In this document: positions 2,977 through 43,111 of the stretch, piece after piece
Position numbering within the stretch: position 1 is the stretch's first letter
Layout of the letters: the number at the start of each line of letters is the position of its first letter
NCBI GenBank assembly: GCA_017483805.1
Contig: JAFUUL010000161.1
Location: 1-58,777 of the forward strand
Length of the DNA stretch: 58,777 bases
Direction of reading: 5' to 3'
Origin: Prevotella sp.
GTDB lineage: Bacteria; Bacteroidota; Bacteroidia; Bacteroidales; Bacteroidaceae
Position numbers and translations under genes: made by a program
Notes under the pieces: generated by a model
Database searches by the model: none
Told to the model about the DNA's origin: nothing
Seen by the model: only the letters and a program-made list of their open reading frames with translations

Positions 2977-3517
2977 TTTACGCTACAATGAATTTTTCGA
3001 AAAATATCTGTCACTTCTATCACTTTCCTTTGTTTATCGTGGTTTCAGGGGTGGCAGATGGGGTGATAGATGTGATAGATTTTACATTTTTTCACTAAAA
3101 AAGTGCGCTTTGGTGGGCCAAAAACTGCCATTTTTGAAAAAACAGCATTGCGGGCCGTCGCGGCACACGGGGAGCAAGCATTTGTTCCAGGCTTTGGAAT
3201 GGGGGCTTCCAGGGGGTGGAACAATTTGTTCCAAGGCCTGGAAGGTTTTGTTCCAAGGCTTGGAACATTTTGTTCCAGGGGGTGGAAGGTTTTGTTCCAG
3301 GGGGTGGAACATTTTCGGGCTATCGCGAATGCGCTCTCTAAGTGGAGCGATGATTTTGAAAAATGCGGATTTTTTGCCAAAATTACAGATATTTTATTCT
3401 TAATTTCCGTTAAATCTGTCATATCTATCACCCCATCTGCCACCCCTGAAATGCCGATAAACAAAGGAAAGTGATAGAAGTGACAGATATTTTTCGAAAA
3501 TTTCCTTGTAGGCGAAA
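2977..3517. repeat. 541-bp inverted-repeat element with internal TTCC...GGAA palindromes
   Basis: The left arm (2977-3083) and right arm (3412-3517) are inverted copies of about 105 bp with few mismatches. Both contain TGTCACTTCTATCACTTTCC, TTTGTTTATCG, TTTCAGGGGTGGCAGATGGG and a GTGATAGAT-type stretch. Between them lie about 330 bases with a cluster of short palindromes (3183-3310). No transposase and no obvious target duplication are visible. The right arm ends 16 bases from the dinB stop codon. Several reading frames cross the element, but their sequence simply mirrors the repeats. A second element of the same plan is at 42841-43111. Confidence 0.75.
3183..3310. repeat. Cluster of TTCCA-N5-TGGAA palindromes
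   Basis: Six units with the frame TTCCA...TGGAA: centres AGGCTT, AGGGGGT (three times), AAGGCCT and AAGGCTT. The unit at 3249-3267 (TGTTCCAAGGCTTGGAACA) is a perfect 19-bp palindrome about one central base. Outer bases are conserved and centres vary. Spacing is irregular, so this is not a CRISPR. Confidence 0.75.
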
Positions 3518-3533
3518 GCCGGCGACATTGCGA

Positions 3534-4634
3534 TCACCAGGGCAGGAACTCGAGTTCCAGTTCCCGCCACTCGCCGCGGGAGGGCGACGGCCTGTCTTGC
3601 TGCTGGGCGTGGCCGGAGACGCCGAGACCCAGCAGACGGACGGGGTGGGAGGCGGTGATGTCGACCTGACGGAGCAGTTGCTTGGCCAGGGGCAGGATGT
3701 CGGCCTTGCGGAGGAGCACCCGGTCCTGGGTGATGCTGCGCGTGACCTGCTGGAAGTCGGCATACTTGACCTTGAGGGTGAGCGTGCGGCCCTCGAAGCC
3801 GCTCTTGGCGATGCGGCGCTCCAGTTCCTCGACGGTGTGGTAGAGTTCGATGATGATCTGCGAGGACTTGTGGATGTCGGTCAGGAAGGTCTGCTCGCAA
3901 CTGACCGACTTGCGCTCCCACTCGGCTACGACGGGACGCTCGTCGATGCCGCGGGCGAAGTCGTAGAAGACGCGCCCCATCTTGCCGAACTCCTTGGTGA
4001 GGTGGCCCAGGGAGAAGCGCTGCAGGTCGGCCCCGATGAAGATGCCCATGCGGTGCATATGGTCGGCCGTCTTCTGCCCCACGCCCCAGATGCGCTCCAC
4101 GTGGAGTTGGTCGATGAAGGCCTGGGCGCGGTCGGGATGGATGACGCAGAGGCCGTCGGGCTTGCGGTAGTCGCTGGCTATCTTGGCCAGGAACTTGCAG
4201 TAACTGACGCCGGCCGATGCCGTCAGGCCCGTCTCGTGCTTGATGCGCTGCTTGATCTCGCGGGCGCAGTCGACGGCCAGTGGGATGGCCCGCTTGTTGT
4301 CGGTCACGTCGAGGAAGGCCTCGTCGAGCGACAGGGGCTCGATGAGGTCGGTATAGTCGTGGAAAATCTCATGAATCTGGGCCGACACCTCTTTATATAT
4401 ATGGAAGTGGGGCTCGACGACCACCAGCGAGGGACAGAGGCGGCGGGCCGTGACGAGGGGCTGGGCCGAGTGGACGCCATAGCGGCGGGCCTCGTAACTG
4501 GCTGTGGAGACGACGGACCGCGGCCCGTCGTGGGCCACCGCCACGGGCAGTCCACGGAGGGCCGGATTGTCCCGCTGCTCAACGGCAGCATAGAACTGAT
4601 CCATGTCTACATGTATGATGCGTCTCGGCTCCAT
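3534..4634 (-). CDS. dinB: DNA polymerase IV (Y family)
   Basis: Error-prone Y-family translesion polymerase, cytoplasmic. Catalytic carboxylates are Asp10 in HVDMD and Asp104/Glu105 in PLSLDEAFLD. The steric-gate position is Tyr15 (QFYAAVEQ), where E. coli DinB has Phe. SYEARRYGVHSAQP, GVSYCKFLAKIASDYRKPDG and the helix-hairpin-helix VERIWGVGQKTADHM are typical. The little-finger domain runs from about residue 235, and the C-terminus ELELEFLPW could serve as a beta-clamp-binding tail. Length (366 aa) is normal. The gene stands alone, with its own promoter box 14 bases upstream of the ATG. A 414-codon frame on the opposite strand is a GC-codon artefact. Confidence 0.96.
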   Translation of the reverse strand: MEPRRIIHVDMDQFYAAVEQRDNPALRGLPVAVAHDGPRSVVSTASYEARRYGVHSAQPLVTARRLCPSLVVVEPHFHIYKEVSAQIHEIFHDYTDLIEPLSLDEAFLDVTDNKRAIPLAVDCAREIKQRIKHETGLTASAGVSYCKFLAKIASDYRKPDGLCVIHPDRAQAFIDQLHVERIWGVGQKTADHMHRMGIFIGADLQRFSLGHLTKEFGKMGRVFYDFARGIDERPVVAEWERKSVSCEQTFLTDIHKSSQIIIELYHTVEELERRIAKSGFEGRTLTLKVKYADFQQVTRSITQDRVLLRKADILPLAKQLLRQVDITASHPVRLLGLGVSGHAQQQDRPSPSRGEWRELELEFLPW

Positions 4635-4647
4635 TCGCTTCGAGGGG

Positions 4648-4655
4648 CAAAATTA
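4648..4655 (-). promoter_or_regulatory. Promoter -7 box TAATTTTG for dinB
   Basis: Fits TAnnTTTG on the minus strand, 14 bases from the ATG, which implies a leader of fewer than ten bases. No LexA-like box was recognised. Confidence 0.4.
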
Positions 4656-4770
4656 CGAAAAAGCGACGAAAAAACCCTGAAAGGCGCGTTAATAATGCCT
4701 GATTTTGTTAAATAATCGTAAATCATGGCCCAAATTCTCAATCGTCGATTCCCAATTCTCAATTTATTAG

Positions 4771-4778
4771 TACCTTTG
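4771..4778 (+). promoter_or_regulatory. Promoter -7 box TACCTTTG for rplM-rpsI
   Basis: Exact TAnnTTTG match, 155 bases before the rplM start codon. A near-repeat of CCCAAATTCTCAAT / CCCAATTCTCAATTT lies directly upstream (about 4730-4762). Confidence 0.6.
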
Positions 4779-4784
4779 CAGTCC

Positions 4785-4932
4785 GATTATTCGGGGAGAG
4801 TCTTAGAATCCCCACGGGCGTCGTGTAAATAGTGCCTGTCTTTGGCCGGACGGCACGGTTTGTGAATCGGCGTTCAACAAAAGAAACTTTATAAAGTAAA
4901 AGAACTGTTTTTTAGTAAATTTAAACGAAGAA
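4785..4932 (+). promoter_or_regulatory. Candidate ribosomal-protein leader upstream of rplM
   Basis: The 148-base leader holds two hairpins followed by an A/T-rich stretch before the ATG: GGGGA...TCCCC (4793-4813) and GTGCC-GTC...GAC-GGCAC (4832-4856). A structured leader directly ahead of L13 suggests autogenous control by a ribosomal protein, as known for several L13 operons. The match to a specific Rfam family is not shown here. Confidence 0.4.
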
Positions 4933-5394
4933 ATGAACACTTTAAGTTACAAGACCGTCTCTATTAACAAGGAGACAGCCAAGAAGGAGTGGGTGGTCAT
5001 CGACGCTACCGATCAGGTGGTGGGCCGTCTCGCTTCGAAGGTCGCCAAGTTGATTCGTGGCAAATACAAGCCCAGTTTCACTCCGCACGTTGACTGCGGC
5101 GACAACGTCATCATCATCAATGCTGCCAAGGTGAAGTTCACCGGCAAGAAGGAGACCGACAAGGTCTACACCCGTTATACTGGCTATCCCGGTGGTCAGC
5201 GCTTCAACACGCCCGCCGAACTGCGCAAGAAGCCCAACGGCATCGACAAGATGCTGCGCCACGCAGTGAAGGGTATGCTGCCCAAAGGCCCCCTCGGCCG
5301 CAGCCTGCTGAACAACCTCTACATCTATGAGGGCACAGAGCACAAGCACGAGGCTCAGCAGCCGAAGGCTATTGATATTAACCAGTATAAATAA
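4933..5394 (+). CDS. rplM: 50S ribosomal protein L13
   Basis: Large-subunit protein, 153 aa, normal length. It starts MNTLSYKTVSINKETAKKEW and shows the L13 signature blocks VVIDATDQVVGRLASKVAK, YTRYTGYPGG and HAVKGMLPKGPLGR. It is the first gene of an L13-S9 pair that is conserved across bacteria. rpsI follows after 12 bases. Confidence 0.98.
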   Translation: MNTLSYKTVSINKETAKKEWVVIDATDQVVGRLASKVAKLIRGKYKPSFTPHVDCGDNVIIINAAKVKFTGKKETDKVYTRYTGYPGGQRFNTPAELRKKPNGIDKMLRHAVKGMLPKGPLGRSLLNNLYIYEGTEHKHEAQQPKAIDINQYK

Positions 5395-5406
5395 TAATAG
5401 GTAAAG

Positions 5407-5793
5407 ATGGAAGTAATTAACGCAATAGGTCGTCGCAAGAGTTCAGTGGCTCGTGTGTATCTGTCGGAAGGTACCGGCAAAATTACGATCAACAAGAAGG
5501 ATTTAACCGAATATTTCCCCTCTGCCATTCTGCAGTATGTGGTGAAGCAGCCGCTGAACCTGCTGGAGTGCGCTGAGAAGTACGACATCAAGGTGAACCT
5601 CGACGGTGGTGGCTTCACTGGCCAGAGCCAGGCTCTGCGCCTGGCCATCGCCCGTGCACTGGTGAAGGTGAACGCCGAGGACAAGAAGACGCTGAAGGAT
5701 CAGGGCTTCCTGACACGCGACAGCCGCGAGGTAGAGCGCAAGAAGCCGGGTCGTCCCAAGGCACGTCGTCGCTTCCAGTTCAGTAAGCGTTAA
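5407..5793 (+). CDS. rpsI: 30S ribosomal protein S9
   Basis: Small-subunit protein, 128 aa. GRRKSSVARVYL at the N-terminus, GGGFTGQSQALRLAIARAL in the middle and the basic tail KKPGRPKARRRFQFSKR (which reaches toward the P-site tRNA) identify it. Co-transcribed with rplM. Confidence 0.98.
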   Translation: MEVINAIGRRKSSVARVYLSEGTGKITINKKDLTEYFPSAILQYVVKQPLNLLECAEKYDIKVNLDGGGFTGQSQALRLAIARALVKVNAEDKKTLKDQGFLTRDSREVERKKPGRPKARRRFQFSKR

Positions 5794-5910
5794 ACAGACT
5801 GGACTACGTTTAGTATCTAAACTCCTGAGATTTCTTTACGAACTACTTGGGGGCTGATCTAACAAGATTAAAAAGAAAGTAAACAACCAAATTAAATCAA
5901 AGAGAAAAAA

Positions 5911-6759
5911 ATGGCAAGAACAAATTTTGACCAGTTGCTGCAGGCCGGCTGCCACTTCGGCCACCTGAAGCGTAAGTGGAACCCCGCCATGGCTCCCTAT
6001 ATCTACACTGAGCGCAATGGTATTCACATCATCGACCTGCACAAGACCGTCGTGAAGATTGACGATGCAGCAGAGGCCCTGAAGAACATTGCCCGCCAGG
6101 GTAAGAAAATCCTCTTCGTAGGTACTAAGAAACAGACTAAAGAAGTGATTGCCGAGAAGGCAACCAGCGTGAATATGCCCTACGTCATCGAGCGTTGGCC
6201 CGGTGGTATGCTGACCAACTTCCCCACCATCCGCAAGGCCGTGAAGAAGATGGCAACCATCGACAAACTGATGAGCGACGGCACCTTCGGCAACCTGTCG
6301 AAGCGTGAGTTGCTGCAGGTGACCCGCCAGCGCGCCAAGTTGGAGAAGAACCTCGGTTCTATCGTCGACCTGACCCGCCTGCCCAGCGCCCTGTTTGTGG
6401 TTGACGTGATGAAGGAGCACATCGCCGTGGCTGAGGCCAACCGTCTGGGTATCCCCGTGTTCGGCATCGTCGACACCAACAGCGATCCCAAGAACATCGA
6501 CTTCGTGATTCCCGCCAACGATGATGCCAAGGACAGCGTAGAGGCCGTGCTGAACGCCTGCTGCGCCGCCATCGCCGAGGGTCTGGAGGAGCGCAAGGCC
6601 GAGAAGGCCGACGAGAAGGCTGCCGAGGCTCAGGCCGAGGGTGAGGCCGAAGAGGCTAAGCCCAAGCGCACCCGTCGTGCCCGCAAGGACGAAGAGGCTC
6701 CCGCCGCTCCCGCCGAGGAGGCCGCTCCCGCCGAGGAGGCCGCTCCCGCTGCAGAGTAA
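5911..6759 (+). CDS. rpsB: 30S ribosomal protein S2
   Basis: Small-subunit protein. The conserved core covers residues 1 to about 230: LLQAGCHFGHLKRKWNPAM, IHIIDLHKT, FVGTKKQ, ERWPGGMLTNFPTIRK, GIPVFGIVDTNSDP. The C-terminal 50 residues are a low-complexity Ala/Glu/Lys tail ending in PAEEAAPAEEAAPAAE, which makes the protein 282 aa rather than about 240. Such acidic tails are common in Bacteroidetes S2. The 117 bases after rpsI contain no recognisable -7 box, so it is probably read through from rplM. The stop codon abuts a TTAAGAA repeat that fills the gap to tsf. Confidence 0.97.
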   Translation: MARTNFDQLLQAGCHFGHLKRKWNPAMAPYIYTERNGIHIIDLHKTVVKIDDAAEALKNIARQGKKILFVGTKKQTKEVIAEKATSVNMPYVIERWPGGMLTNFPTIRKAVKKMATIDKLMSDGTFGNLSKRELLQVTRQRAKLEKNLGSIVDLTRLPSALFVVDVMKEHIAVAEANRLGIPVFGIVDTNSDPKNIDFVIPANDDAKDSVEAVLNACCAAIAEGLEERKAEKADEKAAEAQAEGEAEEAKPKRTRRARKDEEAPAAPAEEAAPAEEAAPAAE

Positions 6760-6824
6760 TTAAGAGTTAAGAATTAAGAATTAAGAGTTGTCGGCTTTGC
6801 CGATTAAGAATTAAGAATTAAGAA
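6757..6824 (+). repeat. TTAAGAA heptamer repeat with hairpin, rpsB-tsf gap
   Basis: The gap between rpsB and tsf consists almost wholly of TTAAGAA/TTAAGAG units, interrupted by the hairpin TCGGC-TTT-GCCGA (6791-6803). The same block, with a compensated stem change, fills the malQ-GH97 gap on the minus strand (29532-29603). Period 7 with TAA in the unit gives stops in all three forward frames. Confidence 0.8.
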
Positions 6825-6826
6825 TT

Positions 6827-7822
6827 ATGGCAATTTCAATTGATGATATCAAGAAACTGCGCGCTATGACCGGTGCCGGTCTGGCCGACGTGAAGAAGGC
6901 CCTGACCGAGGCCGAAGGCGACTTCGACCGTGCCAAGGAACTGCTCCGCGAGCGTGGTCTGGCTATCGCCGCCAAGCGCTCTGACCGCGAGACTTCCAAC
7001 GGTTGCGTGCTCGTGAAGAAGGTGAACGGCTTTGCCGCCACCCTCGCCCTGAAGTGTGAGACTGACTTTGTGGCCAATGGTGCCGACTTCATCGCCCTGA
7101 CCCAGTCGATCCTCGACGCCGCCATCGCAGCCAAGGCTGCCGACCTGGAGGCTGTCAAGGCCCTCGACATCAACGGCCAGACTGCTCAGGAGGCTGTGAC
7201 CCAGCGCTCGGGCATCACCGGCGAGAAGATGGAACTGGACGGCTATCTGACCCTCGAGGGTGAGAACGTCGAAGTGTACGACCACATGGGCAAGCACATC
7301 CTCTGCACCATGGTTCAGACCAACAAGGAGAACGCCGAGGTAGGCCACAAACTGGCCATGCAGGTGGCTGCCATGAAGCCCGTGGCCCTGAACGCCGAGC
7401 AGGTGGACCAGAAGATCCTGGACGAGGAGTACAAGACCGCCGTCGAGAAGACCAAACTCGAGCAGGTGGAGAAGTATGTGGAGATGAAACTGAAGAAGGC
7501 TGGCATCAACCCCAACCTCGTGGACAGCGAAGACCACATCGAGAGCAACATGGCCAAGGGATGGCTCACCCAGGAGCAGGCTGACGAGGCCCGCAAACTG
7601 ATTGAGGCCTCTAAGGCTGAGGGCGAGGCCCAGTTGAAGATGCCCATGATCGAGAACATCGCCAAGGGCCGTGTGCAGAAGTTCCTGAAGGAGAACTGCC
7701 TGGTGGACCAGGAGTTCCAGTTCGGCGACGGCGACAAGGCTACCGTTGCCCAGTGGCTGAAGGCACAGGACAAGGAACTCGACATCGTGGCTTTCCGTCG
7801 CTTCACGCTCGTGGCAGAATAA
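6827..7822 (+). CDS. tsf: Elongation factor Ts
   Basis: Guanine-nucleotide exchange factor for EF-Tu, 331 aa. The N-terminal UBA-like domain reads IKKLRAMTGAGLADVKKAL, followed by the core motif ALKCETDFVANGADF. Residues 55-330 form the two EF-Tu-contacting subdomains. It follows rpsB, the classic S2-EF-Ts pairing, across a 67-base gap made of heptamer repeats. A strong terminator follows the stop codon. Confidence 0.97.
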   Translation: MAISIDDIKKLRAMTGAGLADVKKALTEAEGDFDRAKELLRERGLAIAAKRSDRETSNGCVLVKKVNGFAATLALKCETDFVANGADFIALTQSILDAAIAAKAADLEAVKALDINGQTAQEAVTQRSGITGEKMELDGYLTLEGENVEVYDHMGKHILCTMVQTNKENAEVGHKLAMQVAAMKPVALNAEQVDQKILDEEYKTAVEKTKLEQVEKYVEMKLKKAGINPNLVDSEDHIESNMAKGWLTQEQADEARKLIEASKAEGEAQLKMPMIENIAKGRVQKFLKENCLVDQEFQFGDGDKATVAQWLKAQDKELDIVAFRRFTLVAE

Positions 7823-7846
7823 TTGTAGAAATACTTTTGATACGAG

Positions 7847-7884
7847 AATCGGCAATGTCGTTTTGGCATTGCCGATTTTTGTTT
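7847..7884 (+). terminator. Intrinsic terminator after tsf
   Basis: AATCGGCAATG pairs with CATTGCCGATT (11-bp stem), followed by TTTTGTTT. It closes the ribosomal-protein unit. Confidence 0.8.
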
Positions 7885-7913
7885 AAACATTTGGTGGTAT
7901 GAATGATTTTTCG

Positions 7914-7921
7914 TATCTTTG
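7914..7921 (+). promoter_or_regulatory. Promoter TTTG-N20-TATCTTTG for the PP2C-to-M3 unit
   Basis: TTTG at 7890-7893 is followed by 20 bases and TATCTTTG, a full consensus Bacteroidetes promoter. It is the only good promoter I see before the twelve co-directional genes ending at 23655. Confidence 0.65.
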
Positions 7922-7946
7922 CACCCAAGTAGAGTAGTATTGTCAC

Positions 7947-10064
7947 TTGGACACCATCAGAACCATCCTCATTGCCATCTTAGCCATCATTTCTGCAGGC
8001 TACAGCGGCGTGGTGTTTGCCGAAGAATCGGTAAATCTACGTGATATGCTCGCTGGCGCCGAGGGGCGCCAACGGCTGGATCTGCTGGAGAAGATCTATG
8101 ACGAGAGCCTGTCCACCGACGATCTGGACTACCAGATCAGATGCCTGTATGAACTGATGGACGAAGCCCGCCATCAGAAGATGCAGCGCGAGATAGGCAA
8201 CGCACTGCTGCTGCGCACCGTGCTCTACTACAACAACAACCTGAACGACTCCATCTACCTGCTGGTGCCTCAGGACCTGGAACTCCTGCGGGAGTACGGG
8301 CTGTGGACCTACTACTACGAAGACTGGATACTGCTGGCCAACTCCTACATCTTCGAAGGCAACAGCCGCCAAGGCCTGGAAGAGGTGCAGCGTATGTTCG
8401 ACGACGCCATGGAGCGCCACAACAACTACGGCATCGGCACGGCCTACTACGGCATGGGCAATGCCTACACGCAGATGAACAACTGGGACGAGTGCATCGC
8501 CTCCTATGAGAAGAGCATCGAAGTGCTGTCGGGCATCAGGCCGCGGCCGGTCGTCCTGCCGGAAATCTACAATTACTATGGCGACGCCCTCAACGACATG
8601 GAGGCCTACGACAAGTTGGAGGAACTGACCGACAGATGGAAGGAGTTCCTCATCCAGTTTATCGAGGACAGCAACCAGTCGTTCTCCGGCAATGCCGACA
8701 TCTACTGGTCCTACTACTACATAGCCAGCACCCAGGCCAAACTGGGACTGGGAAAACTGGACGAGGCAGAGCGTATGCTGGCCGGCGCCAAGGAGCACAT
8801 CGCCTCCGACGATGACTACGTGGGCATGAGTTGGCTGTTCTACAAGGCCCAGTTGCTGCTTCAGCAGGGCCGCTACGACGAAGCCCTGACGCTGAACACC
8901 CGCCGTATGCAACTGATGGAGGAATACAACGACGAGGGCGTGTTCATCACCGTGCGCAAGCAGCGGGCACAAATCATGGAGGGCCTGGGCCGCTATGAAG
9001 AGGCCGCCCGGCTGTACAACGAGATGTACGTGCTCAACGACTCCATCAATGCCAGCGAGACCAAGCGCCAGTTGACGATAATGAACACTCAGTTCCACGT
9101 CGGCGAACTCAAGAGGGAGAAGGAGCGTGCCCAGTTCCGCTGGATCATCACCGTCGGAGTCATCGTGCTGCTCTCACTGGCCGTCTTCATGGTTTTCCGC
9201 CTGCGGGCAGCCAAGCGCCTCAAGCAGGCCCACCAGAACCTGGAGGAGGCCCATGCCAACCTGCAGGATGCCTACGACCAATTGGAAGAGACCACCACGG
9301 CCAAGGAGCGCATAGAGAGCGAACTGCGCATTGCCCGCGACATCCAGATGGGCATGGTGCCGGCCGAATTCCCCGACCGGCCGGACATAGACCTCTATGC
9401 CTCGATGACACCCGCCAAGGAGGTGGGTGGCGACCTCTACGACTTCCTGCTGCTCGACGACCGGCTCTACTTCTGCGTCGGCGACGTGAGCGGCAAGGGT
9501 GTGCCGGCCTCGCTCTTCATGTCGCAGGCCACCCGCCTGTTCAGCGCCCTGGCCAAGCAGTCGCTCATGCCGGCCGACATAGCCACCCGCCTGAATGCCG
9601 AACTGAGCGAGAACAACGAGAACGGTATGTTCGTCACCATGTTCATCGGCATGGTCGACCTGACCACCGGCCATCTCGACTTCTGCAACGCCGGCCACAA
9701 CCCGCCGGCCATTGGAGAAGCGCAGGGCACTCATCACTCATCACCCCTCACTTATCACTTCCTGGAGATGGAACCCAACGCCCCCATCGGCCTGTGGCCG
9801 GAACTGGACTACGAGGGCGAGAGCATAGATAGCATCATCGACCAGCCGCTGTTCATCTACACCGACGGACTCAACGAGGCCGAGAACGCTGCCCAGGAGC
9901 AGTTTGGCGACGACCACCTGCTGGAGGTGCTGCACCAGACGCCCTACGAGAACGCCCGTCAGTGCATAGAGGTGATGCGCGAAGAGGTGGCCCGCCATGT
10001 GGCCGGCGCCGAACCGAGCGACGATCTCACCATGATGTGTTTGAAAGTGAAAAGTGAAAAGTGA
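7947..10064 (+). CDS. TPR-transmembrane-PP2C (RsbU/SpoIIE-type) phosphatase
   Basis: Membrane-anchored serine phosphatase that would dephosphorylate a STAS-domain antagonist. Start is TTG at 7947: an in-frame TAG lies just upstream and no ATG precedes the signal peptide (TILIAILAIISAGYSGVVFA). Residues 30-380 are TPR-like helical repeats. A transmembrane helix lies at about 399-420 (WIITVGVIVLLSLAVFMVF), then a coiled coil (KQAHQNLEEAHANLQDAY). The SpoIIE/PP2C domain spans about 465-700: ARDIQMGMVP, EVGGDLYDF, VGDVSGKGVPASLFM, FCNAGHNPP, FIYTDGLNEAEN, SDDLTMM. A heptamer repeat encodes an unusual THHSSPLTYHF insert after NPPAIGEAQ, and the stop codon lies inside another repeat. It heads a partner-switching gene set with the next three genes. 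Confidence 0.9.
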   Translation: MDTIRTILIAILAIISAGYSGVVFAEESVNLRDMLAGAEGRQRLDLLEKIYDESLSTDDLDYQIRCLYELMDEARHQKMQREIGNALLLRTVLYYNNNLNDSIYLLVPQDLELLREYGLWTYYYEDWILLANSYIFEGNSRQGLEEVQRMFDDAMERHNNYGIGTAYYGMGNAYTQMNNWDECIASYEKSIEVLSGIRPRPVVLPEIYNYYGDALNDMEAYDKLEELTDRWKEFLIQFIEDSNQSFSGNADIYWSYYYIASTQAKLGLGKLDEAERMLAGAKEHIASDDDYVGMSWLFYKAQLLLQQGRYDEALTLNTRRMQLMEEYNDEGVFITVRKQRAQIMEGLGRYEEAARLYNEMYVLNDSINASETKRQLTIMNTQFHVGELKREKERAQFRWIITVGVIVLLSLAVFMVFRLRAAKRLKQAHQNLEEAHANLQDAYDQLEETTTAKERIESELRIARDIQMGMVPAEFPDRPDIDLYASMTPAKEVGGDLYDFLLLDDRLYFCVGDVSGKGVPASLFMSQATRLFSALAKQSLMPADIATRLNAELSENNENGMFVTMFIGMVDLTTGHLDFCNAGHNPPAIGEAQGTHHSSPLTYHFLEMEPNAPIGLWPELDYEGESIDSIIDQPLFIYTDGLNEAENAAQEQFGDDHLLEVLHQTPYENARQCIEVMREEVARHVAGAEPSDDLTMMCLKVKSEK
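9729..9756 (+). repeat. In-frame ACTCATC heptamer array inside the PP2C gene
   Basis: Four 7-base units: ACTCATC, ACTCATC, ACCCCTC, ACTTATC. They encode part of THHSSPLTYHF in the loop between the NAGHNPP motif and the next strand of the phosphatase domain. The coding strand carries the stop-free orientation of the boundary repeats. Confidence 0.7.
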
Positions 10065-10088
10065 TAAGTGATAAGTGAAAAGTGAAGA
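10047..10088 (+). repeat. GTGAAAA/GTGATAA heptamer array at the PP2C stop
   Basis: Six 7-base units: GTGAAAA twice, GTGATAA twice, GTGAAAA, GTGAAG. The last codons (KVKSEK) and the TGA stop of the phosphatase gene lie within it, and most of the gap to the next gene is repeat. Units contain TGA and TAA, so all forward frames close. Confidence 0.8.
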
Positions 10089-10110
10089 ATTAAAAGCCTA
10101 ACATAAGATT

Positions 10111-10524: not shown

Positions 10525-10552
10525 AAGGTTAAAACAAAAAAAACATACGATT

Positions 10553-10864: not shown

Positions 10865-10871
10865 CACCATC

Positions 10872-11807: not shown

Positions 11808-11819
11808 CAGACACGGCGA

Positions 11820-35084: not shown

Positions 35085-35139
35085 GATAAAACTTTCCTAT
35101 CACGATGCGCCTGACAAGAATAATTGACAAACGCAACAG

Positions 35140-35153: not shown

Positions 35154-35207
35154 CAATCATAATAACGATTTTTATGCAAAAAAAGTACAAGAGAAGCAAA
35201 ATAAACC

Positions 35208-35215
35208 TACCTTTG
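35208..35215 (+). promoter_or_regulatory. Promoter -7 box TACCTTTG for susCDEF
   Basis: Exact -7 box, with no TTTG at the expected -33 position, which is compatible with a promoter that needs an activator. The leader to the susC ATG is about 70 bases. Confidence 0.55.
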
Positions 35216-35287
35216 CACTCGAACTAAGGCCTAAAAGACCAATCGAGATATAACAATACTAACTAATTTTAAACCTAATTAAATGTA

Positions 35288-38200
35288 ATGATGAAGCAGG
35301 TAAACATTAAATTACCATTCAGGATGTTGGCCCTCATTGTGGGCTTATTCCTGTCTGTGGGAGCCTTTGCGCAGATTACTGTGAAAGGCCATGTGAAAGA
35401 TGCTGCAGGCGAACCCATCATCGGAGCCACCGTACGCGTGCTGGGCACCCAGAACGCTGCGCTGTCCGACTTTGATGGTAACTTCACCGTACAGGCCAAT
35501 CAGGGAGCCGACATCCAGGTGACCTACATGGGTTATCAGGCTGCCACGGTGAAGGCTGCTCCCAATGTAGTGGTGACGCTCCAGGAGGATGCCGCCATCC
35601 TGAACGATGTGGTGGTCATCGGCTACGGTCGCGCCAAGAAGAGCGACCTGACCGGTTCTGTCACCGCTATCAAGCCTGATGAAAAGAACCACGGCTTGCA
35701 GGTGAACGCGCAGGACATGATTCAGGGCAAGATTGCCGGTGTGAGCGTGACTTCCAACGACGGTGCTCCCGGCGGTGGTGCAACCATCCGCATTCGTGGT
35801 GGCTCTTCGCTGAATGCCTCCAACGACCCTCTGATTGTGATTGACGGTCTGGCCATGGACAACTATGGTGTGCAGGGCCTATCCAACCCTCTTGCAATGG
35901 TGAACCCGAACGATATCGAGTCGTTCACAGTTCTGAAAGATGCTTCTGCAACAGCCATCTATGGTAGCCGCGCTTCTAACGGTGTGATCATCATCACCAC
36001 CAAGAAAGGCTTGAAAGGTCAACCCCTGAAGGTCAGTTACAATGGCAACATCTCTATTGCCACGAAGAAGAACACAATTGATGTGCTCGATGGCCCTACC
36101 TACAAGCAGATGATTACCGATATGTATGGTGAGGACAGCGATGCATATCGTGCTCTGGGCTGGAGAGACGACGCCGGCAACCAGTACTTTGAAGACACCG
36201 ACTGGCAGGATCAGATTTATCGCACTTCCGTTTCAACTGACCAGAACATCACGCTGACTGGTGCCACGAAGAACATGCCTTATCGCGTGTCTCTGGGTCT
36301 GACCAGCAACAACGGTATCATCAAGACTACCAGTTTCCAGCGTTACACGGCCAGTTTCAACCTGTCACCTTCACTGCTGAAGGATCACCTGAAACTGAAC
36401 ATCAACGGTAAGGGTATGTACTCTAAGAACCGCTATCAGGCTGGTGTCGTGGGCGAGGCTGTCAACTCAGACCCCACCAAGCCCATCAGAGCAAACAACA
36501 CACCCTACAACCAGAGTTTCGGCGGCTACTTCCAGTGGTATCAGAATGCCGACTATGGCGATCCCACATGGGCCTACAAGCCCAACAACAACGCACGTCC
36601 GAATCCCGTGGCATTGCTGAACCTCAATCACGACATCGGCCGCTCCAAGGCTTTCATCGGCAACATTGAGGCCGACTATGCCATCCATGGATTTGAAGAC
36701 TTGCACCTGCATGTCAATGCCGGCATGGACTATTCGACGGGTAAGTCAAAGTACGACGTCGATCCTTCTATCGCTTGGTACACTGGCGGCTACAACCGCA
36801 ACTATTATGGCTACAAGGGTTGGAGCACAAAGGATTCCTACAATCTGCAACTCTCTGCCTACGCCCAGTACATGAAGGAGATCACCAAGGCCCATCACAT
36901 TGACATCATGGCCGGTTATGAGTGGCAGCGCTTCCATCAGGAGACTGATTGGGACGGCTCTGGCTACTATCCCTCCACTCACCCCACGATGGCCGGTGAA
37001 CGCTACAACGCACCTGCCTCAGAGACTGAGTACAAGAGTGAGAACTATCTGGTTTCATTCTTCGGTCGTCTGAACTACTCTCTGCTGGATCGCTATCTCA
37101 TCACCTTCACCCTGCGTGATGACGGCTCGTCTCGCTTCTCGAAGGGCAACAAGTGGGGTCTCTTCCCCTCAGTCGCTCTCGCATGGCGCATGAAGGATGA
37201 AGCATTCCTGAAGAATGTAAATGCTGTGAGTGATGCTAAGATTCGTCTGGGCTGGGGTAAGACTGGTCAGCAGGAGGGTATCGGCGACTACACCTACATC
37301 GCCACCTACACCCCCAACCAGGATCACGCTTACTATCCGCTGGTCGGCAATGGTGCCACCACGCGTCCCGATGCCATCAATCCCGACCTGACTTGGGAGA
37401 AGACGACCACCTACAATGCAGGTATCGATCTGGCATTCCTGAACAACCGTCTGGAGTTCAACCTCGACTGGTACTATCGTAAGACTACCGACCTGATCAA
37501 CACCGCTTATATCGATCCGGGTAGCAACTTCCGCAACAAGTTGACACAGAATATCGGTGAACTGCACAACACGGGTATCGAGTTTGCCACCATCCTTCGT
37601 CCTATCGTGACCAACGACTGGCGTTGGGAAGTCAACTACAATGTGACCTACAACAAGAACAAGATTGACAAACTGACCAGTGGCAGTGGCGAGGGCTACT
37701 ACGTTGAGACGGGTAGTATCTCCGGTGGTCTGGACAACACTATCCAGGCACACACCGTGGGTCAGGCCACCAGCACCTTCCTGGTCTACCAGCAGGTCTA
37801 CGACCAGAATGGCAAGCCCCTGGTCAACACCTTCGTAGACCGTAATGGCAATGGCATTATCGATGCCGGCGACCGTTACTACTACTACAATCCTGCTCCC
37901 GACGTGACCATGGGTCTCGGCAGCAAACTGCAGTACAAGGGCTGGGACTTCAGTTTCAATATGCGTGCAAGCCTTGGCAACTATGTATATAACAATGTGG
38001 AGAGTGAGCGTTCTAACATGGGAACTGGCGAAATCTGGCGCAATGAGTTCCTGCTCAACCGCACCAAGGAAGCCTATCGCATGGGCATGAGCGGCAACCT
38101 CACCGAACAACTGATGAGCGACTACTGGGTGACCAATGCCTCGTTCCTGAAACTTGACAACATCACACTGGGCTACTCGTTCGACCGCCTGCTCGACACG

Positions 38201-38350
38201 AAGATCAACGGCCGCATCTATGCCACCGTACAGAACGTGTGGACTTGGACCAAGTACGACGGCCTTGATCCAGAGGTTGCCGGTGGTATCGACAACAATA
38301 TGTATCCGCGCCCATTCACCACAGTGCTGGGTCTGAACCTGAACTTCTAA
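35288..38350 (+). CDS. susC: SusC-like TonB-dependent outer-membrane maltodextrin porter
   Basis: 1020-aa TonB-dependent transporter that imports starch oligosaccharides together with SusD. Signal peptide 1-29 (ending VGAFAQ). Carboxypeptidase-regulatory-like domain 30-110 (GHVKDAAGEPIIGATVRVLG). Plug domain about 115-235 (VVVIGYGRAKKSDLTGSV, IRIRGGSSLNASNDPLIVID, IYGSRASNGVIIITTKKG). Beta-barrel to the C-terminus (TTVLGLNLNF, terminal Phe). ATG 35288 or the adjacent ATG at 35291 may be used. First gene of susC-susD-susE/F, under the LacI-type operator. Confidence 0.95.
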   Translation: MMKQVNIKLPFRMLALIVGLFLSVGAFAQITVKGHVKDAAGEPIIGATVRVLGTQNAALSDFDGNFTVQANQGADIQVTYMGYQAATVKAAPNVVVTLQEDAAILNDVVVIGYGRAKKSDLTGSVTAIKPDEKNHGLQVNAQDMIQGKIAGVSVTSNDGAPGGGATIRIRGGSSLNASNDPLIVIDGLAMDNYGVQGLSNPLAMVNPNDIESFTVLKDASATAIYGSRASNGVIIITTKKGLKGQPLKVSYNGNISIATKKNTIDVLDGPTYKQMITDMYGEDSDAYRALGWRDDAGNQYFEDTDWQDQIYRTSVSTDQNITLTGATKNMPYRVSLGLTSNNGIIKTTSFQRYTASFNLSPSLLKDHLKLNINGKGMYSKNRYQAGVVGEAVNSDPTKPIRANNTPYNQSFGGYFQWYQNADYGDPTWAYKPNNNARPNPVALLNLNHDIGRSKAFIGNIEADYAIHGFEDLHLHVNAGMDYSTGKSKYDVDPSIAWYTGGYNRNYYGYKGWSTKDSYNLQLSAYAQYMKEITKAHHIDIMAGYEWQRFHQETDWDGSGYYPSTHPTMAGERYNAPASETEYKSENYLVSFFGRLNYSLLDRYLITFTLRDDGSSRFSKGNKWGLFPSVALAWRMKDEAFLKNVNAVSDAKIRLGWGKTGQQEGIGDYTYIATYTPNQDHAYYPLVGNGATTRPDAINPDLTWEKTTTYNAGIDLAFLNNRLEFNLDWYYRKTTDLINTAYIDPGSNFRNKLTQNIGELHNTGIEFATILRPIVTNDWRWEVNYNVTYNKNKIDKLTSGSGEGYYVETGSISGGLDNTIQAHTVGQATSTFLVYQQVYDQNGKPLVNTFVDRNGNGIIDAGDRYYYYNPAPDVTMGLGSKLQYKGWDFSFNMRASLGNYVYNNVESERSNMGTGEIWRNEFLLNRTKEAYRMGMSGNLTEQLMSDYWVTNASFLKLDNITLGYSFDRLLDTKINGRIYATVQNVWTWTKYDGLDPEVAGGIDNNMYPRPFTTVLGLNLNF

Positions 38351-38390
38351 GTTTTTCACAACAAGACAACATTTTAAAGCATATAAGACT

Positions 38391-40013
38391 ATGAAACTAA
38401 GAAATATTATTCCGGCAGTGGCCATGGCTTGCCTCACACTCGGTTTCTCCTCTTGTGTCGGTGATCTGGATGTAGACAACATCAACCCACAGCAGGATGC
38501 CAACTATAGCCAGGACGCACTGTTCAATAAGATGTATGCCAACCTGTCGCTTACAGGCCAGAAAGGTCCTGACGGCAGCGGCGACCTGGACGACATTGAC
38601 GAAGGCTTCTCTGGACTGATCCGTAACTTGTGGAACGCTAACGAGTTGTCTACCGACGAGGCAAAGTGCATCTGGGGCGACCCTGGTATCCCCGAGTTCA
38701 ACCACAACTCTTGGAGCGATGCCCATCCTCTGATGCAGGCCATGTATTATCGCTTGTTCTTTGGCGTGACACTCGCCAACTATTTCCTGCAGGAGACCGA
38801 GGGTGCTGACGATGCCAACACGCTGACCATGCGTGCAGAGGCCCGTTTCATCCGTGCCCTCCACTATTACTATCTGATGGATCTCTACGCCAATGTTCCC
38901 ATCATCACCACGATGAGCAAGGACCTGGCTACGCAGTCCAGCCGCGCAGAGGTATTCAGTTTCATTGAGAGTGAGTTGAAAGACATCATCGGTGAAGGCA
39001 ATTCCACCGAAGTGCTTGCCGACTCGAAGAGCAACACCTATGGCCGCGCAGACAAGACGGCTGCCGAGATGCTGCTGGCTCGCCTGTATCTGAATGCCGA
39101 GGTCTACACCGGCACTGCCCGTTGGGCTGACGCTCAGACTCGCGCCAACAATGTCATCAACTCACAGTACAAACTGAACACCACCGGTGCCGGCAAGTAC
39201 AGCGCATTCCAACTGCTCTTCATGGGTGACAACGACACCAATGGTGCACAGAACGAGATCATCCTTCCCGCCCTCTATGACGGCGAGCAGACACAGAGTT
39301 GGGGCGGCACACTCTTCGTCATTGCTTCTACGGCCAACTCTAAGGTCACCGACCCTGCACTGGGCAACTATCCCCTTGGCACCGGTCAGGCATGGGGCGG
39401 CAACCACTGCACCAAGCAGTTCGTTCAGAAGTTCTTCCCCAACGACGATGCTCCTCAGGGCAACCCCTTCGACCTGACAGCCGCTGCCGGTGATGACCGC
39501 GCCCTGTTCTACACGCTCAATCACGAACTGGAGATTTCCGATGAAGGTGACTTCGAGAAGGGCCACACCTATCTGAAGTTCCTCAATGTGCACAGCGACG
39601 GTTCAGCCCCCCACCATGCAGACTATGTCGACACCGACTTCCCCCTGCTGCGTGTGGCCGAGGCCTATCTGACCTTCGCCGAGGCTGATGCCCGCCAGAA
39701 TGGCAACAACTGTACCGCTGCCGGTCTGGAGAAGATCAATGCCCTCCGCACTCGTGCTCACGCCAACACCGTATCTTCATTCTCACTCGACAACATCTGT
39801 GATGAGTGGTCCCGTGAGTTCGCCTACGAAGGCATGCGCCGCGTGGTGCTGATTCGTCACAACAAGTTTGGCGGTCAGAGCAACTACAAGTGGGAATGGA
39901 TGGGTGGCACTGCCGCCGGTTCGTCGTTCGACGCCCACTTCAACATCTATGCTATTCCTGTCAGCGCTCTCAACGCCAACGAGAATCTGAAGCAAAATCC
40001 TGGTTACGAATGA
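38391..40013 (+). CDS. susD: SusD-like starch-binding outer-membrane lipoprotein
   Basis: 540-aa RagB/SusD protein forming the lid of the SusC porter. The signal peptide has a lipobox (FSSC, about residue 22), followed by acidic residues (CVGDLDVDN) typical of surface export. The SusD TPR region includes EARFIRALHYYYLMDLYANVP-type segments, and the C-terminal region has LLRVAEAYLTFAEADARQNG and ALRTRA. EWSREFAYEGMRRVVLIRHNKF is the conserved C-terminal helix. Follows susC by 40 bases. Confidence 0.95.
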   Translation: MKLRNIIPAVAMACLTLGFSSCVGDLDVDNINPQQDANYSQDALFNKMYANLSLTGQKGPDGSGDLDDIDEGFSGLIRNLWNANELSTDEAKCIWGDPGIPEFNHNSWSDAHPLMQAMYYRLFFGVTLANYFLQETEGADDANTLTMRAEARFIRALHYYYLMDLYANVPIITTMSKDLATQSSRAEVFSFIESELKDIIGEGNSTEVLADSKSNTYGRADKTAAEMLLARLYLNAEVYTGTARWADAQTRANNVINSQYKLNTTGAGKYSAFQLLFMGDNDTNGAQNEIILPALYDGEQTQSWGGTLFVIASTANSKVTDPALGNYPLGTGQAWGGNHCTKQFVQKFFPNDDAPQGNPFDLTAAAGDDRALFYTLNHELEISDEGDFEKGHTYLKFLNVHSDGSAPHHADYVDTDFPLLRVAEAYLTFAEADARQNGNNCTAAGLEKINALRTRAHANTVSSFSLDNICDEWSREFAYEGMRRVVLIRHNKFGGQSNYKWEWMGGTAAGSSFDAHFNIYAIPVSALNANENLKQNPGYE

Positions 40014-40032
40014 TTAAATGAACAAAACGATT

Positions 40033-41226
40033 ATGAAAAAGATAAGTATTTTGGCTACCATGCTGCTGGGATTGTTCGCTTTCACAGCTTGTGAGACCGA
40101 CAATGACGACAACCCCACACTGGCTGTGCCACAGTCCTTCCAAATCAACAACCCCGTTGTTGGCAATCAGGTGGTCGACCTGAGCCCTGCCAGTTCCTCT
40201 ATCGAACTGAAGGTTCACGCTGCTCCTGCCTATGGTTTCCCGACCGCAGTTTCCTATGGTGCACAGATGTCGCTTGACGGCAACTTCACCGAGGCTGACA
40301 CTTACACGCTGGACGGCACAACCACCAGTATGACCTATCAGGCCCTTACCTATGATATCGAAAAGGGTATCCAGACGCTTCGCGGCGTAGAGGACGAAAA
40401 TGGCTTCAACACTCTGATTACCGAGGCTGAGCGCACCAACGGCATGCCCGTCTACCTCCGCATGACGGCTAACCTGCTCAACGCTCAGGACAGCAGCAGC
40501 CTTGTCACCTCCAATGTGGTGAAGGTCAATGTGCTGCCCTACTACTATGAGTTGAAGGATGCCGATCCGGAGATCTGGTGGATGACAGGCGCTATCATTG
40601 CTGATGGCTCATGGTCTAACTCCGAGTCTGCTCTGGGTACTGGTATGACCCCGCTCTACACCAAGAAGGGTGAGGAATACGACAAGGTGACCGGTACTGG
40701 CGTACTGGAATACACTGGCTGGTTCGAGGCTGGTTCGTTCAAGATCATCGCTCCTGCCGGCATCGGCAACTGGAACTATGGTATGTGCGGTGGCACCGAA
40801 GAGGGTGGCCACGTCTACCGCGACGGCGGCGACGATCCCGGCGATATCAGCATCACCGTGGCTGGCTACTACACGCTGACTCTCGACACCAAGGCTCATG
40901 AACTGAAGATCACGCCTTACACGGATCCCGTCTCTGTATTCACCACCATCACACTGCCCGGCAGCCATAATGAATGGGATGCAGCAGCCGATGCTCTTAC
41001 CGGCATAACGACTGTGGCCGAGAACCACGACTGGACCACCGAGGTGACCTTCACCAAGGAAGAAGAAGTGAAGTTTGCCATCGGCAACTGGGATACCAAC
41101 TGGGGTGCCGCAACCTTCCCATGGGGACAGGGTGTAGGCGGCGGAGCCAACATTCCCGCTACGGCCGGAACCTACAAGGTCTACTTCAACGACATCACTG
41201 GCCAGTATATGTTTATTGCAAAATAA
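40033..41226 (+). CDS. SusE-like starch-binding outer-membrane lipoprotein
   Basis: Surface starch-binding protein of the SusE/F type, about 397 aa from ATG 40033 (MKKISILATMLLGLFAFTAC). An ATG 15 bases earlier is possible, but the GATT-ATG context matches other genes here. The lipobox Cys is followed by acidic ETDNDD, suggesting surface display. An N-terminal SusE domain (QSFQINNPVVGNQVVDL) precedes two carbohydrate-binding domains: the middle one with ADGSWSNSESALGTGM, the last with FAIGNWDTNWGAATF and YKVYFNDITGQYMFIAK. The last domain is clearly homologous to the end of the next protein. Confidence 0.88.
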   Translation: MKKISILATMLLGLFAFTACETDNDDNPTLAVPQSFQINNPVVGNQVVDLSPASSSIELKVHAAPAYGFPTAVSYGAQMSLDGNFTEADTYTLDGTTTSMTYQALTYDIEKGIQTLRGVEDENGFNTLITEAERTNGMPVYLRMTANLLNAQDSSSLVTSNVVKVNVLPYYYELKDADPEIWWMTGAIIADGSWSNSESALGTGMTPLYTKKGEEYDKVTGTGVLEYTGWFEAGSFKIIAPAGIGNWNYGMCGGTEEGGHVYRDGGDDPGDISITVAGYYTLTLDTKAHELKITPYTDPVSVFTTITLPGSHNEWDAAADALTGITTVAENHDWTTEVTFTKEEEVKFAIGNWDTNWGAATFPWGQGVGGGANIPATAGTYKVYFNDITGQYMFIAK

Positions 41227-41251
41227 GTAATATCAATAAGGAGACATAACT

Positions 41252-42724
41252 ATGAAGTTTAAATCATATTTCCTGTTAGGCTTTGCAGCCTTGGCGCTGG
41301 CAGCCTGCGATAAGGACTTTGGCGACTGGACAGAACAGGCTGTCAACGAGCAAGATGCCATCACGGAGTTCACGGCTGCAAACATTACAGTCTCAACCGA
41401 GGCTGCCGCCGGCATCGACTTTGCCAACGTCAACGAAGGAGACCTGATCAAGGTTGCCAATGTGACCGCTCCACAAGCATCGGTAGAGGGCTATACGCCC
41501 TCCTACCAGATTGTCTTGGGCGGCACCCACACCTACGACCTGACGGCCAATGGCGAGATCAAGGCAGAAGACCTGAAAGCCTACATCGAGGAAGTCTATG
41601 GCAAGGCTCCCGACGTGCGCACCATCTCAGCCGTGGTCATCACCACCTTCGGCAGCAGTGCACTTGCTACTCGCTACACTTCAAATCCGTTTGACATTAA
41701 GGCCAATCTGCTGGCTCCCCACATCTCTGAGAACTACTACGTAGTGGGTGGTGCTCTTGAATGGGGTCCATCTGCAGCCTCCAAGGAGCAGAAGTTCAAG
41801 CACAGCGATCAGAACGTCTACGACGATCCTATCTTCACCATCACCATCCCTGCCTCATTCGATGCCGACGGCAATCGTACTGACACATGGTTTGCCATTG
41901 GTGACGACGAGGCTTGCGATGCCATTACCAACAACGATGATTGGAGCAAACTGCTCGGCACCACAGCCGGAAACGGCATGAACGGCTATACCGGCAATCT
42001 GGCTCCCCGCACCGAGATTGGCAACGACGGCAGCCTGATGCTGCCCGCCAGCGATGAGGCCGTGGCCTACAAGATCACCCTCAACATGATGGACTATGCA
42101 TTCAGCATCGAGCCTGTCAGCGCAGCACCTGAGACTTGGTATCTCGTTGGCGGTTGCATCGGCGACGGCTCTTGGGGCAACGCTCCCGAGAATATCGGCA
42201 CTGCCATCTTCCCGTTGGCATACATCGGCGACAAGAAGATTGCCTACACCGGCTACTTCACCACCGACGGCTTCAAACTCATTAAGACCCCCGGCTCATG
42301 GGACGACCAGTGGGGCTGGAACAACGGTTACGTGAAGAACGACGGCGGTTCAGGCAACCTCTGGGTGGAGACTGCCGGCTGGTACACCGTGACGCTCGAC
42401 TACGTGAACGACGTGCTGACCATCGAGCCTGCTGCTGAGCCCACTGCCACTTACGAGGTAGGTATCGCAGGCAGTTTCAACGGCTGGAGTTTCCAGGCCA
42501 TGACCAAGTGCACTGGCAGCGACCACCTGTGGAAGATTGACCTCACCGCCGACGGCGATCAGAAAGGCAAGTTCCTCATCGACGGCTGGAGCGTCAACTG
42601 GGGTGCAGCCGACTTCCCCTCGGGCATCGGTACCCAGAATGGTCCTGACATCCCCATTGCTGCTGGCAACTATGTAGTGGTCTTCAACGACATCACTGGC
42701 GGCTACAACTTCATCAGCAAGTAA
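41252..42724 (+). CDS. SusF/SusE-like starch-binding outer-membrane lipoprotein
   Basis: 490-aa lipoprotein (LALAAC, Cys20) with acidic residues after the cysteine. An N-terminal SusE-like domain (about 30-150) is followed by three binding modules. The second has ETWYLVGGCIGDGSWGNAPEN and the third VGIAGSFNGWSFQAMT ... FNDITGGYNFISK, which parallels the end of the preceding protein. It closes the susCDEF unit and is followed by a clear terminator. No susG-type amylase follows. Confidence 0.88.
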   Translation: MKFKSYFLLGFAALALAACDKDFGDWTEQAVNEQDAITEFTAANITVSTEAAAGIDFANVNEGDLIKVANVTAPQASVEGYTPSYQIVLGGTHTYDLTANGEIKAEDLKAYIEEVYGKAPDVRTISAVVITTFGSSALATRYTSNPFDIKANLLAPHISENYYVVGGALEWGPSAASKEQKFKHSDQNVYDDPIFTITIPASFDADGNRTDTWFAIGDDEACDAITNNDDWSKLLGTTAGNGMNGYTGNLAPRTEIGNDGSLMLPASDEAVAYKITLNMMDYAFSIEPVSAAPETWYLVGGCIGDGSWGNAPENIGTAIFPLAYIGDKKIAYTGYFTTDGFKLIKTPGSWDDQWGWNNGYVKNDGGSGNLWVETAGWYTVTLDYVNDVLTIEPAAEPTATYEVGIAGSFNGWSFQAMTKCTGSDHLWKIDLTADGDQKGKFLIDGWSVNWGAADFPSGIGTQNGPDIPIAAGNYVVVFNDITGGYNFISK

Positions 42725-42747
42725 GTCACCGTCAATACAACTCATCA

Positions 42748-42784
42748 AGAGGCGAGCCAATCACACTGGCTCGCCTCTTTCTTG
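42748..42784 (+). terminator. Intrinsic terminator after the SusF-like gene
   Basis: AGAGGCGAGCC pairs with GGCTCGCCTCT around AATCACACT-like loop bases, followed by a T-rich run (TTTCTTG). Confidence 0.85.
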
Positions 42785-42840
42785 TTAGGCTCTCATGCCC
42801 TGCGGGCGTTAACACATTTTAAAGATTGCATCATCTATAC

Positions 42841-43111
42841 TTACCCAAAACAAGGTGCACTTACTGCACTTTCTGCACCTAAAGCCAGTCAGACCAACCA
42901 TGCCGTTCATCGCAACTACGACCATCCTGGTTTGCTTCGGATAACAGTTCCCTGTTGTTCCTCCTGTGGGAACTGACTGTTTCTCCCATGGGAACAAAGT
43001 GTTTCTCCAGGAGAAACAAACTGTTTCCATAGGAGAAACAAATCGGAAACAGTTTTCCTTTGGAAACGACCAAGTGTAGAAAGTGCAGTTAGTGCACCTT
43101 GTTTTGGGTAA
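42841..43111. repeat. 271-bp inverted-repeat element with internal TTCC...GGAA palindromes
   Basis: Arms 42841-42874 and 43078-43111 are 34-bp inverted copies with one mismatch (TTACCCAAAACAAGGTGCAC, then TTACTGCACTTTCT). The arms contain a 9-base tandem, GCACTTACT GCACTTTCT. Between them is a palindrome cluster (42946-43069). The right arm ends 18 bases from the stop codon of the minus-strand GH43 gene. The layout matches the element at 2977-3517, including CACTT-N4-CACTTTC in the arm. No protein or transposase is evident. The 55 bases between the susF terminator and the element show nothing. Confidence 0.75.
42946..43069. repeat. Cluster of GTTTCTCC/GTTCC palindromes
   Basis: Units include GTTCCTCCTGTGGGAAC, GTTTCTCCCATGGGAAC, the perfect palindrome GTTTCTCCAGGAGAAAC (43001-43017), GTTTCCATAGGAGAAAC (43023-43039) and TTTTCCTTTGGAAAC. 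Ends are conserved and centres vary, as in the cluster at 3183-3310. Confidence 0.75.

Follow-up and report, generated by a model that had tools for sequence, protein, structure and literature searches.

Probable gene-less copies of an origin-like module of primase-helicase mobile elements in intergenic regions of Prevotella

The 58,777-nucleotide contig JAFUUL010000161.1 of a rumen Prevotella sp., the whole of which is referred to here as the window (contig C126 of the draft genome G000, 3.6 Mb in 199 contigs), carries two intergenic elements, designated E1 and E2, in which inverted outer arms enclose an array of short palindromes, and these raise the question of what kind of DNA they represent. 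They had been described, in a reading of the sequence alone, as one family of structured intergenic element that targets gene 3' ends. Our comparisons indicate that both are probably copies, without genes, of the origin-like module found in small mobile elements of Prevotella that encode a BT4734-type archaeo-eukaryotic primase fused to a VapE-like helicase, and for E1 a gene-less, origin-like derivative of such an element is the best reading. Four sequence comparisons point this way: the architecture shared with the modules of primase-helicase elements, the closeness of E1 to one of these elements (C196), the presence of a C196-type unit in unrelated flanks in a sister genome, and an E2 site in that genome whose arms, the same as those of E2, hold a different array.

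E1 (2983..3511, no strand assigned) ends in CTACA...TGTAG. Its left arm (2983..3085, plus strand) consists of iterons CTGTCACTTCTATCACTTTC plus inverted GGTGGCAGATGGGGTGATAGATGTGATAGATTTT and is copied in inverted orientation as the right arm (3409..3511, minus strand), and the array between them (3181..3315, no strand) comprises six dyads of the type (T)GTTCC-N7-GGAA(CA) with a 22-bp period. E2 has a left arm of iterons GTGCACTTACTGCACTTTCTGCAC (42837..42878, plus strand), an array of four to five dyads of the type TGTT(T/C)C-N7-G(A/G)AACA, again with a 22-bp period (42948..43060, no strand), and a right arm that is the left arm in inverted orientation (43074..43115, minus strand). The arms measure 103 nt each in E1 and 42 nt each in E2 and are 92% and 93% complementary, respectively. 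When 166 overlapping 700-bp segments of the window were scored, E1 (78.8) and E2 (35.4) were the top two inverted repeats, the next scoring 19.8, and the outer inverted arms described earlier are thus confirmed. The motif CACTT-N4-CACTTTC, previously assigned to the arms, matched the window three times, always within an arm, and did not occur in 100 shuffled sequences; it is present in three of the four arms and missing from the right arm of E2. A strict scan for arrays (at least four dyads with 5-bp stems, 20-24 bp apart) found E1 (six dyads, 3185-3311) and E2 (five, 42957-43058) as the sole arrays in 253,433 bases of G000 and none in three shuffled copies. Looser settings flagged a few further places in this genome, and a narrower spacing of 21-23 bp listed E1 and not E2, which by its half-sites has four units at 22 bp. 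Three overlapping E1 open reading frames (ORFs) of 123-154 aa gave no Pfam match, and neither E1 (529 bp) nor E2 (279 bp) has room for a primase-helicase gene of at least 622 codons.

BLAST searches of G000 with E1 and E2, whose hits were read individually, showed that the two have a common architecture and belong to two distinct arm sequence families, both multi-copy, so that the supposed single family holds for the architecture and not for the arms. Family A (E2-type arms, GTGCACTTACTGCAC iterons) is represented by nine arm pairs and by single arms on C40 and, degraded, on C75; the pairs on C171 and C139 are one locus on duplicate contigs. As G000 contains several such duplicates (C51/C142, C171/C139, C32/C138 and C100/C158, identical over 1.7-5.4 kb), copy numbers can count one locus twice. 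Family-A arms enclose TGTTTC dyads (E2, C95), TTTTAC dyads (C195) or TATCTC dyads (C13, C69, C71, C78), and among named records the E2-type arm was found on four contigs of three Prevotella metagenome-assembled genomes (MAGs), two of these MAGs being from goat and roe deer stomach. At L365:2660-3400 (G000:C171) E2-type arms surround a deaminase gene (dCMP deaminase by PHROG) together with TATCTC dyads, as though the arms had taken up a passenger gene. Family B (E1-type arms, CTGTCACTTCTATCAC iterons) comprises E1 with its two arms, one arm plus array at C25, C46, C72 and C104, a lone arm on C6, and the gene-carrying C196; an outer boundary similar to that of E1 is seen in many other family-B copies.

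The C196 unit is 2.8 kb long and consists, in this order, of an arm, a DUF6078 gene (Pfam), a TTCC array, a 622-codon primase-helicase gene and the second arm. The E1 arm is 91% identical over 107 bp to one C196 arm and 82.5% identical over 80 bp to the other, and the two arrays share 77% identity over 111 bp. In the close sister genome G062 (RGIG4792, by its coordinates the same genome as G169), whose shared flanks are 88-96% identical to those of G000, a corresponding unit on C91 matches C196 at 94.5% over 2786 bp, from the CAGAAAGTTTTT end through the TAG end, whereas the flanks, on the TrkH side of C91 and at the AAA-ATPase fragment and acetyltransferase of C196, are unrelated over the 1.2-1.5 kb compared. 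With such identity from arm to arm in unrelated flanks, the unit appears to have moved, and to have done so with defined ends. Pfam analysis of six ORFs of C196 (the two genes and four overlapping frames) gave matches for the two genes only, and no transposase or recombinase was recognized among them. DUF6078 was recognized by a Cys motif in six of 21 loci and is therefore not a constant partner. When seven arms of gene-less modules were compared with 13 primase modules, E1 gave the strongest similarity (E 6e-34), followed by two arms from other genomes (E 2e-16 and 3e-9). Neither arm pattern had a match in viral contigs, where no relative of the C196 protein was confirmed either, and a plasmid search gave no DNA match to E1 or E2; at the protein level, C196 relatives occur in 409 phage and 90 plasmid records, seven and two of them, respectively, over at least 80% of the length. 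PADLOC returned only PrimPol and reverse transcriptase-associated VirE-like matches.

A similar arrangement of arms and array was found upstream of BT4734-type primase-helicase genes. A search for PF08800 in eight genomes, picked because they hold arrays, gave 39 matches, seven of them within about 500 bp of already known array places (G126:C14, G325:C57, G000:C100, G008:C14, G000:C26, G000:C196 and G169:C91). Five of six proteins scanned combine the PF08800 primase with the PF05272 helicase, the sixth being an antisense frame, and the VapE domain of L318 matches PDB 7pds, named as similar to D. nodosus vapE (E 1.6e-9). Seventeen upstream regions were analysed, namely three from plasmid or phage records and 14 from loci drawn from 20 that we chose among the 39 matches, leaving out L321 (identical to L320), L323 and L334 (strands confused), L326 (gene disrupted), L333 (nearly a copy of L325) and L336 (too short). 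By eye, most of 15 genes are preceded by tandem iterons, by dyads or hairpins, and by inverted iterons. The inverted-repeat score of the upstream 620 bp exceeded the best of eight shuffles of the same sequence in 16 of the 17 genes and the best of 20 control regions in 15, with arms 199-361 bp apart in 11. At least three dyads in 22-bp register were present upstream of eight of the 17 genes as against none of 19 controls. Pairs of dyads in these regions were 22 bp apart in 33 cases, 33 bp in 24, 44 bp in 17, 55 bp in eight and 66 bp in ten (controls, one pair at 22 bp); the links between units form dyads too, which places dyads at every 11 bp. The iterons differ gene by gene, each gene having its own type. 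As judged by eye, the TTCC arrays of G000 pair with family-B arms, AATTCTCTAGAGAATT arrays pair with similar iterons in G126 and G180, and the TGTTTC arrays of G000 accompany at least three iteron types (E2, C100, C73). As elements with different iterons thus share TGTTTC arrays in one genome, the binding partner of the array may be a host protein. At C2 and C14 of G000 (L123:5099-5177 and L135:255-329), GGCTGGAGCC-type repeats with a 22-bp period resemble those upstream of the primase gene of C125.

At the E2 site of the sister genome, the alignment spans 1511 bp of the right flank (95.6%) and 109 bp of the left flank (91%), beyond which the left side differs. The arms align as well, and the interior is unrelated: it holds a TTTTAC..GTAAAA array that, when inverted, matches the interior of C195 in G000 at 94.7% over 114 bp, and that C195 interior shares 83.5% identity with the array preceding the C96 primase gene. 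As an apparent exchange of arrays, the E2 locus offers a natural experiment on the separate roles of arms and arrays. Of other arrays common to both sisters, the one on C104 and that within a U32 peptidase gene have hardly changed; those on C72 and C125 show divergence or the gain of a unit.

The array units conform to TGTTYC-N7-GRAACA or near variants. In G000 and the sister genome, the distance between neighbouring units was 22 bp in 98 of 102 cases, the remaining four being at 44 bp; the uniform 22-bp distance in other genomes (38 of 38 neighbour pairs) was discounted as evidence of spacing, because those loci were mostly picked with a pattern of fixed 22-bp period. The palindromes with TTCC/GGAA ends, kept ends and variable centres of the sequence-only reading correspond to conserved half-sites separated by variable 7-base spacers, and the cores are not self-matched. 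Its proposal that each copy homogenizes its own cores found no support, as within- and between-array core distances were alike in all four groups tested (p 0.55, 0.50, 0.40 and 0.20), and self-matched cores were likewise rejected for G000 and its sister, where 11 of 12 core-pair tests were without covariation (p 0.005 in the remaining one). Pooled arrays of other genomes showed two of three core pairs to be complementary above shuffled sequences (p <0.001 and 0.013). As half-sites and register are fixed and the cores of the two close genomes do not covary, a protein lattice is the more likely nature of the array than an RNA.

Arrays were also met in other settings. A three-unit TGTTTC array lies in frame inside the U32 peptidase/DUF3656 gene in both sister genomes (G000:C81:44075-44137, L009, and L080), and most nearby substitutions fall inside the array; this in-frame position may resemble that of the Rickettsia palindromic elements. 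In each of two genomes an array, of different type in the two, immediately precedes the trigger factor gene (L370:2270-2700, called by Pfam Trigger_N, and L171 around 1501-1585, called by similarity), which suggests a recurrent array site.

Taken with the modules upstream of primase genes, the arms can be described as a pair of inverted iteron clusters, the short iterons being particular to each element family, and the array as a lattice of dyads at every 11 bp (units at every 22 bp, about two helical turns). By analogy with known replicons, the primase-helicase would bind both inverted iteron clusters, open the region between them, prime there and copy the element, the array serving as a site where another protein docks. 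Elements without genes, E1 among them, would be copied in trans, and arrays could be exchanged by recombination through arms in common. More tentatively, and with the odds rather against it, these elements might constitute a class of mobile DNA with the primase-helicase as its sole enzyme, a self-copying 2-3 kb unit with inverted iteron arms that uses no known transposase, integrase or HUH nuclease in reaching new chromosomal sites and spawns origin-only elements such as E1 and E2, with array cassettes exchanged between units. If so, the uncharacterized BT4734/BF3469 gene family of gut and rumen Bacteroidales would gain a working hypothesis, that of a mini-replicon initiator with a cognate, testable origin; an unusual route to repeats resembling miniature inverted-repeat transposable elements (MITEs), through a primase-helicase instead of a transposase, would become apparent; and a strict 22-bp dyad lattice would be added as a feature. 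A new class of structured intergenic element, as envisaged before, is possible on other grounds, namely the relation to primase-helicase elements.

Several observations weigh against this interpretation. The mobility of the unit is deduced from one pair, C196/C91; inspection by eye showed no target duplication at E1, C196 or C91, and a clean empty site, sought for E1, C95 and C25, was found for none of them, the gene beyond dinB being a different one in the nearest relative examined for E1. Four of the six gene-less family-B loci of G000 have one arm, and four family-A copies (C13, C69, C71, C78) sit within a larger repeat bearing its own terminal inverted repeats. Three other gene-less module arms match primase modules weakly (E 6e-4 to 2e-3), and a parent with E2-type arms was not found among the 13 primase modules (best E 0.31), so that E2 is assigned by architecture only. 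As 109 bp of left flank align at the E2 site, a larger rearrangement there is possible. Upstream of the primase genes, L337 is a clear exception by eye and lacks an inverted repeat above shuffles, the arms of L325 and L333 flank a two-gene unit and not the array alone, and the inverted repeats of L324, L325, L338, L339 and L340 are short-range (42-71 bp apart); five of the 17 regions have only two dyads and four have no 22-bp chain, and the PF08800 count covers array-bearing genomes only. Finally, most arrays elsewhere (35 of 42) were without an inverted repeat within 300 bp.

The spread of the arrays was surveyed in 299 genomes of the genus; many genomes used here are drafts or MAGs, and the loci were selected and not random. 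A two-unit pattern with at most one mismatch occurred in 47 genomes, and a reversed control pattern in four (G008, G028, G089, G172); G172 carries the control pattern 59 times, possibly as another 22-bp array family. Inverted repeats within 300 bp on both sides accompanied seven of 42 arrays (L143, L146, L148, L154, L155, L163 and, weakly, L261), those of L143 and L148 lying upstream of primase genes. The link between arms and palindromes thus stands for the two families of the window and for the modules upstream of primase-helicase genes, and it is not general. De novo scanning of 440 kb of array-positive genomes flagged six arrays, of which four are clear and two, in G035, represent new sequence types; in 360 kb of pattern-negative genomes three were flagged, none convincing by eye, and across 256 kb sampled from 20 further families of this order, with many short stretches, none was found, with 1.6 flagged per shuffled copy.

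MITEs derived from insertion sequences, with an internal minisatellite as in BrickBuilt and mobilized by a DDE transposase that acts at the ends of the arms, would account for inverted ends, many copies and the lack of a recognized gene, and the larger repeat around four family-A copies fits them too. We nevertheless regard them as unlikely, since the ends of E1 match a primase-helicase unit in which Pfam, applied to six of its ORFs and not to the whole genome, recognized no transposase, a target duplication was not observed, and the BrickBuilt terminal repeat GAGACCTTTGCA, which at up to two mismatches matched the window three times against 5.2 expected by chance, is absent from E1 and E2. 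Somewhat less probable still is that the arrays are chromosomal binding sites of a host factor which primase elements use or insert near. The 35 arrays without arms, the in-frame array of the U32 peptidase gene and the sharing of TGTTTC arrays among iteron types would suit this explanation; the recurrence of arrays upstream of primase genes, their inclusion in the C196/C91 unit, and the pairing of TTCC and AATTCTCTAGAGAATT arrays with particular arms or iterons oppose it.

A structured RNA or terminator, transcribed at the ends of genes and retained on account of its hairpins, is improbable to a greater degree. Arms and dyads could fold, some copies lie near stop codons (22, 14, 19 and 9 bases), and the pooled core pairs show the complementarity mentioned above; on the other hand, covariation is lacking in nearly all core-pair tests of G000 and its sister, the 22-bp register is fixed, a scan at Rfam gathering scores gave no match at E1 or E2, and no preference for 3' ends was detected. 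That analysis took 21 gene-less elements or arrays of our own choice; a gene 3' end was faced by 17 of their 39 called sides, compared with 50 of 122 intergenic sides (47% when weighted by length), and an earlier count with longest ORFs gave 16 of 38. The codon model used for the calls missed the GH43 gene beside E2, which was counted as the 3' side of a farther gene, was doubtful in one call, that at C171, and left three of 42 sides without a gene (left of E1, right of C69 and right of sister C69). The claimed targeting of 3' ends was accordingly abandoned. Hardly any weight can be given to palindromes like those of repetitive extragenic palindromes (REP) and bacterial interspersed mosaic elements (BIME), spread by a Y1 REP-associated tyrosine transposase (RAYT). 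The palindromes are multi-copy, and Y1 genes were counted by hand in 24 of 47 array-positive genomes; they are nearly as common without arrays (107 of 252), and no Y1 match was obtained in G240 and G261, two genomes that are rich in arrays and 92-93% complete. At 17 Y1 loci, TTYC dyad arrays were not found, the scan yielding isolated dyad-like matches and two low-scoring chains of other sequence (L181, L184).

In the window, E1 is followed by dinB (Y-family polymerase; 3534..4634, minus strand), whose 3' end faces it, and is preceded by a C10 peptidase gene (115..2454, minus strand) with its 5' end towards E1, 528 bases off. E2 lies between the 3' ends of genes for a SusE/SusF-like outer membrane protein (41252..42724, plus strand) and a GH43 glycoside hydrolase (43130..44731, minus strand); all four were assigned by Pfam. 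The right arms indeed end close to the stop codons of the minus-strand genes dinB and GH43, at 22 bases (3511 to the stop start at 3534) and 14 bases (43115 to 43130), which is near the 16-18 noted before without matching it exactly. A palindrome array of the type AAAATAGCCTATTTT, with members about 22 bp apart, is also present near dinB in another species (L218:1245-1327, G298). The third-best inverted repeat of the window, with the score of 19.8, occupies 9728-10077 (arms 9728-9760 and 10045-10077), and the sole Rfam match is an L13-Bacteroidia ribosomal protein leader (RF03127) at 4793-4868.

Among known repeats, the BrickBuilt MITE of Porphyromonas gingivalis (PMC4596501) is a likewise intergenic Bacteroidales repeat with inverted ends and an internal tandem array, of 23-nt period; E1 and E2 differ from it in that their units are 22-bp dyads and their relatives are primase-helicase elements. 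REP/BIME sequences with RAYT are alike in being palindromic and multi-copy and unlike in that no Y1 gene among 17 loci was flanked by E1/E2-type arrays. The genes of the E1-related primase elements belong to the BT4734-like family (PF08800), which PMC5862659 gives as an archaeo-eukaryotic primase family not assigned to a clade. Searches of an open-access library turned up no iteron/dyad module, mobile unit or gene-less derivative for BT4734-like primases. Further parallels are the satellite and cassette replicons of P4, Staphylococcus aureus pathogenicity islands (SaPI, Rep) and the staphylococcal cassette chromosome (SCCmec), in which a helicase, alone or fused to a primase, recognizes short iterons beside its own gene, SCCmec Cch2 requiring AAGTG iterons (PMC7581432, PMC7145576). 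AAGTG is the complement of the CACTT core in E1 and E2, which is a resemblance and not a test. Repeats adjoining the initiator gene are a trait that most primase genes examined share with these replicons (L337 being the clear exception of 15, and the arms flanking the unit in L325 and L333). Unlike in P4, SaPI and SCC, inverted iteron clusters here enclose a 22-bp dyad lattice, the unit is 2.8 kb long with no integrase recognized, and gene-less copies are scattered in the genome.

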